NCBI RefSeq assembly: GCF_027359415.1 | Contig: NZ_CP114780.1 | Coordinates: forward strand, 744,001-808,000 | DNA length: 64,000 nucleotides | DNA from: Prochlorococcus marinus str. MIT 0918 | Lineage (GTDB): Bacteria; Cyanobacteriota; Cyanobacteriia; PCC-6307; Cyanobiaceae | Direction of reading: 5' to 3' | Shown: positions 2,207-13,461 of the stretch, piece after piece | Layout: each line of letters begins with the position of its first letter | Position numbering within the stretch: position 1 is the stretch's first letter | Notes under the pieces: model-generated | What the model was told of the DNA's origin: nothing | Seen by the model: only the letters and a program-made list of their open reading frames with translations | Database searches by the model: none | Position numbers and translations under genes: made by a program

Positions 2207-2220
2207 TTCCTTTAATTAGG

Positions 2221-2316
2221 TGACCCGGAGTCCACGCCAGCTTCAAGCATCCCTTTTGGCTGCTACCTTCCGGTCCTGACCAGTTTTGGGCGTTGAGGCC
2301 GCATAGGTCCGAGTCC
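2221..2316 (-). ncRNA. ffs: Signal recognition particle RNA, small bacterial (4.5S) type
   Basis: Read on the minus strand, the segment contains the universally conserved SRP helix 8 sequence GGTCAGGACCGGAAGGTAGC with its GGAA tetraloop, flanked by complementary arms that close into a long hairpin of about 96 nt. This RNA binds Ffh and targets membrane proteins co-translationally. It lies between the stop of ftsZ and the start of panB and is transcribed against both. The ends are estimated from the outer pairing GACTCGGA... with ...TCCGGGTC and may be off by a few bases. Confidence 0.93.
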
Positions 2317-13179: not shown

Positions 13180-13355
13180 ACTAAGCCAACTGGCACTGTG
13201 CCAGTTGGCTTAGTTGCCTCTAGAGGCCTTGGAGAAACATAAAAGCTAGTCATAATATATTTGTGAGGAGCAGGTATTTGCTAAGGAGTCGAAACTAGGA
13301 AAGACTTCCAAGGCAGTACCTAATAAAAAGGCCCTACTATGTAGGGTCTTTTTTA
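13180..13355 (+). ncRNA. Candidate structured small RNA ending in a Rho-independent terminator
   Basis: No plausible protein is encoded, yet structure is dense. A perfect 35-base palindrome (13180-13214, 17-base arms around one T) is followed by the 12-base palindrome GCCTCTAGAGGC (13216-13227). GCCTTGGA (13226-13233) pairs exactly with TCCAAGGC (13307-13314), closing a domain of about 80 nt that contains CTAGT/ACTAG and AGTC/GACT complementarity. A terminator (13326-13354) ends it on the plus strand. This is consistent with a free-standing ncRNA of roughly 130-180 nt. It does not match the small RNA families I can recall; the 5' end is unknown. Confidence 0.5.
13326..13354 (+). terminator. 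Rho-independent terminator of the candidate RNA
   Basis: GGCCCTAC (13330-13337) pairs with GTAGGGTC (13341-13348), with one G-U pair and a TAT loop, followed by six T. The preceding AAAA extends the stem. There is no coding gene immediately upstream on the plus strand, so it must end a non-coding transcript. Confidence 0.75.
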
Positions 13356-13461
13356 TGTTCAAAAAATATTTATAAATTTGATGCATATGACAGAATTGAT
13401 GATCAATACAAAGTATAAATTCCATTTCTGTAAGGGATAAGGCAACTTTTAACTATCCATA

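Follow-up and report, generated by a model that had tools for sequence, protein, structure and literature searches.

Yfr2 is a small regulatory RNA of nearly all cyanobacteria. Positions 13180-13355 of the window (the whole 64,000-nt stretch of Prochlorococcus marinus str. MIT 0918 that we analysed, NZ_CP114780.1, 744,001 to 808,000, forward strand) hold a gene for this RNA together with its promoter and a likely DNA-binding site for a regulator, and the locus is a real and ordinary one of its kind. The open reading frame list contains no frame of at least 60 aa between 12836 and 13461, in agreement with the first-pass annotation, which had described the stretch as gene-free. The gene order around it is hli-like gene, two small proteins, yfr2, two small proteins and HU. 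The features of the locus, in window coordinates, are the following:

13180-13214, no strand: perfect 35-nt palindrome with 17-nt arms and a one-base centre
13188-13206, no strand: conserved operator core AACTGGCACTGTGCCAGTT, probably CGRE1 (GntR/PlmA), the regulator being proposed from PMC6778093
13211-13217, plus strand: promoter-proximal element TAGTTGC, overlapping the right arm of the palindrome and conserved in 14 orthologues
13229-13234, plus strand: putative weak -35-like hexamer TTGGAG, 16 nt before the -10 element, read from the sequence
13251-13256, plus strand: -10 element CATAAT, at -12 to -7 from the predicted start
13263-13355, plus strand: Yfr2 (Cyano-1) sRNA of about 93 nt, with ends predicted from the mapped SS120 and MIT9313 homologues
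13263-13270, plus strand: 5' motif GTGAGGAG, left unpaired, the complement of CUCCUCAC in Yfr1/Yfr10
13272-13321, plus strand: stem-loop with the loop GAAACTAGGAAA at 13291-13302 and covariation in the apical helix
13325-13353, plus strand: hairpin of the Rho-independent terminator (arms 13325-13337 and 13341-13353), followed by its T tract

Identification of the small RNA and its predicted ends

In a covariance search, the Rfam family RF01701 (Cyano-1, the Yfr2 sRNA family) matched positions 13257-13326 of the plus strand over the full length of the model, with a score of 61.5 bits for a curated cut-off of 41 bits. Other Rfam matches, including sar, STnc370 and rli51, were weak and were discarded, as their scores lay far under the cut-off. 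Cyano-1 matches were present in 141 of the 151 family genomes, often several per genome, and this genome has two. Two of the family genomes, which we take to be SS120 and MIT9313, carry RF01701 matches at 556643-556707 (-) and 1667332-1667396 (-) respectively.

These matches coincide with the yfr2 genes mapped experimentally in the two strains (c556612..556701 in SS120 and c1667304..1667390 in MIT9313; PMC1242208, Table 2), in which the 5' end lies 6 nt past the start of the model and the 3' end 28-31 nt past its end. Applying these offsets to the match described here, we placed the RNA at 13263 to about 13354-13357. The predicted length of about 93 nt, with an own terminator, falls within the 87-95 nt typical of the Yfr2 family. 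The same neighbouring genes flank orthologous Yfr2 genes in SS120 and in many other low-light Prochlorococcus lineages, and SS120 therefore has this Yfr2 gene in addition to the one tabulated in 2005.

An unannotated structured small RNA gene ending at its own terminator, distinct from SRP RNA, tmRNA and 6S RNA, had been proposed from the letters of the stretch alone, and the RF01701 match, the fold and the covariation described below bear this out, with Cyano-1 as the family. The claim that the RNA is novel has to be withdrawn, since RF01701, or Yfr2, is a known family: it was described in 2005, its mapped genes are tabulated in PMC1242208 (Table 2), and the Cyano-1 motif is what characterises it (PMC8400943). 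Elsewhere in the window, positions 2219-2315 (-) match the bacterial small SRP RNA (RF00169, 55.9 bits).

RNA structure and covariation

The predicted fold of the transcript leaves GTGAGGAG unpaired at the 5' end, followed by the stem-loop at 13272-13321 and by the terminator. The latter, already recognised at first pass as a Rho-independent terminator of the plus strand, consists of the hairpin at 13325-13353 and its T's; a simple terminator scan reported this hairpin for the minus strand only. In an alignment of 22 Yfr2 copies, two-sided compensatory changes were found in 6 of the 8 consensus helix pairs, and at the pair that closes the loop 13 sequences, this one among them, have C-G and 9 have G-C.

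The conserved apical helix and the GAAAC-AGG-AA loop by which Yfr2 members are recognised are both present in this 22-sequence alignment. The RNA resembles the Yfr2-Yfr5 family (RF01701) in its full-length covariance match, its 5' GUGAGGAG, its GAAAC-AGG-AA stem-loop, its own terminator and promoter, and its length of about 90 nt. It differs in carrying the loop variant GUCGAAACUAGGAAAGAC, which is also found in SS120, MIT9211-like and other low-light orthologues: whereas the Yfr2 of MED4 is described with a GGAAACA repeat, the loop here reads GUCGAAAC...GAAAGAC, a form common among family members above the cut-off.

The palindrome upstream of yfr2

The perfect 35-base palindrome that had been noted at 13180-13214 is far beyond chance: none of 2000 dinucleotide shuffles of the region held a palindrome longer than 23 nt. 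Counted from the predicted transcription start, it extends from about -83 to -49, upstream of the promoter, and it is a DNA element and no part of the RNA. We found 24 exact sites of its 19-bp core, AACTGnCACnGTGnCAGTT, in the 151 family genomes, 23 of which have a Yfr2 gene immediately after them (in one case cut by a contig end), and a reversed control pattern of the core yielded 0 sites in the same 151 genomes. The sole exact site with no Yfr2 gene after it (G131:C1:1228217-1228235, L106) could have arisen by chance or be another target of the regulator. Of 76 Yfr2 promoters, 33 have a best inverted repeat of this type that scores at least 12/14, as against 8 of 1520 shuffled controls, and about half of the Yfr2 copies have no strong full palindrome.

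All the features listed at first pass exist within 13180-13355, and two of them are at chance level. The 12-base palindrome (GCCTCTAGAGGC, 13216-13227) has its like in 6% of shuffles and is not conserved in orthologues. The long-range pairing of GCCTTGGA (13226-13233) with TCCAAGGC (13307-13314) is exact, but a match of at least 8 nt occurs in 23% of 2000 dinucleotide shuffles and the pairing is not found in orthologues. Of the two, the palindrome falls entirely outside the transcript and the pairing by half.

The palindromes and the long-range pairing had been taken for parts of the RNA. A new structured RNA over all of 13180-13355, in which the long palindrome folds into a 5' hairpin and the long-range pairing forms the closing helix, could draw on the great stability that the hairpin of the 35-nt palindrome would have if transcribed, but we consider it highly improbable: the mapped starts in SS120 and MIT9313 correspond to 13263, the -10 element suits a start at this position, the core of the palindrome keeps both its sequence and a fixed distance, and the remaining pairings are those at chance level. 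On the strength of the Rfam match and the mapped starts in relatives, we rejected a novel 176-nt RNA. That the palindrome has no connection with yfr2 and is a terminator or a mobile repeat, as its perfect symmetry and intergenic place might suggest, we find practically without credence: the genome has no second full copy and only partial matches of 15-20 nt, the palindrome is followed by no T tract on the plus strand, and it keeps a fixed position ahead of Yfr2 in other genomes. With a single full copy genome-wide, a dispersed repeat was ruled out.

Outside the core, symmetry is found only sporadically: the majority of 45 sites have 0-3 contiguous extra pairs, against 5-23 in 6 of the 45, and on this ground we rejected the extended arms as a selected long hairpin. 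In 14 orthologues, the proximal arm keeps TAGTTGC with or without an extended palindrome, and the distal arm resembles the proximal arm mainly where the palindrome is long. Judging from these sequences, long palindromes probably arise when the distal arm is occasionally replaced by a copied proximal arm, through quasipalindrome template switching. TAGTTGC is possibly an extra half-site. At the loci L048, L074 and L096, the orthologous yfr2 operators have been extended to perfect palindromes of about 64, 53 and 43 bp, whose arms are not alike in sequence from one lineage to the next. A simple promoter scan returned nothing useful for yfr2.

The centre of the operator lies at about -64 to -70 in most yfr2 genes and at -27 to -30 in the MIT9313-like and Synechococcus-like ones. 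Loci with the operator near -29 are L025, L031, L032, L035 and L059; loci with the operator near -65, from other Prochlorococcus, include L001 and L046, among others.

Proposed assignment of the regulator

In MED4, the GntR regulator PMM1637 binds the yfr2 promoters via CGRE1, an element that occurs nowhere else in that genome (PMC6778093) and that is presented as part of marine picocyanobacterial yfr2 promoters in Lambrecht (2018), as cited in PMC6778093. The palindrome described here stands in the same place and is likewise almost exclusive to yfr2 promoters, and by this position and linkage, rather than by motif sequence, we consider it most likely to be the CGRE1 operator of a GntR/PlmA regulator. 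A further likeness is the single GntR-family gene of this genome, which encodes 328 aa; the difference from CGRE1 is the extension to a perfect 35-nt palindrome.

It is distinctly unlikely that, with yfr2 correctly named as the gene, the palindrome serves a regulator other than PMM1637/PlmA. Such a regulator would fit a core that is unlike the common GntR form, in which GT and AC stand a few bases apart (PMC4494728), and the CGRE1 identity is itself drawn from position and linkage and not from the published motif; however, the restriction of PMM1637-CGRE1 to yfr2 promoters in MED4 (PMC6778093) parallels the linkage observed here. We are very confident of the joint reading, in which 13263-13355 (+) is a yfr2 copy with its own promoter, the adjoining palindrome is its operator, most likely CGRE1 (PMM1637/PlmA), and the RNA acts by base pairing.

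Proposed mechanism and pairing partners

In MED4, high light and nitrogen starvation increase Yfr2 through the action of PMM1637; the RNA titrates Yfr1/Yfr10 by pairing with them, and it also binds a large number of mRNAs (PMC6778093). By analogy, the GntR-family regulator PMM1637/PlmA would bind the CGRE1 operator, and Yfr2 would be an abundant transcript, raised under the two conditions named. The free 5' end of the RNA, GUGAGGAG, would then pair with and titrate sRNAs of the Yfr1/Yfr10 type (through CUCCUCAC), and the loop and other parts of the RNA would bind mRNA targets. For this strain we infer the identity of the regulator, the induction, the titration and the targets from the MED4 publications; the family match, the covarying structure, the synteny, the linkage and position of the operator, and the one GntR-family gene and the Yfr10-like partners in this genome come from the sequences analysed here.

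Yfr10 and Yfr1 (RF02362 for Yfr10) are predicted pairing partners of this RNA and belong to a different family, their CUCCUCAC being the exact complement of the 5' end of this Yfr2. Three Yfr10-like genes lie elsewhere in the genome; they carry ACTCCTCACA in the loop of a hairpin, with a terminator after it, and one of the three has a Yfr10 Rfam match, below the cut-off.

The second Yfr2 copy of the genome (G000:C1:1286806-1286871 (-), L002/L068) scores 53 bits; its operator is the variant AACTGGCACATGTGACAGTT, and just upstream of it, in the same direction, lies a Yfr10-like gene. Around genome position 1290122 (-) (L069), another Yfr10-like gene is followed by an operator that is half degenerate and by a decayed Yfr2-like copy (GCGAGGAG...GTCGAAACAAAGAAACAC) that escapes Rfam detection. 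Lying about 3 kb from the second copy, this has the look of a duplicated Yfr10-Yfr2 module.

Implications

The analysis removes a false novelty, as the locus belongs to one of the best-known sRNA families of cyanobacteria. As by-products, the RNA is cleanly separated from its operator, and the two spacing classes of the operator allow activation and repression to be tested directly against each other. That one regulator activates from one spacing in one lineage and represses from the other in another seems to us rather unlikely; if true, differing operator spacing might mean opposite regulatory signs, an operator behaviour that is so far unreported.
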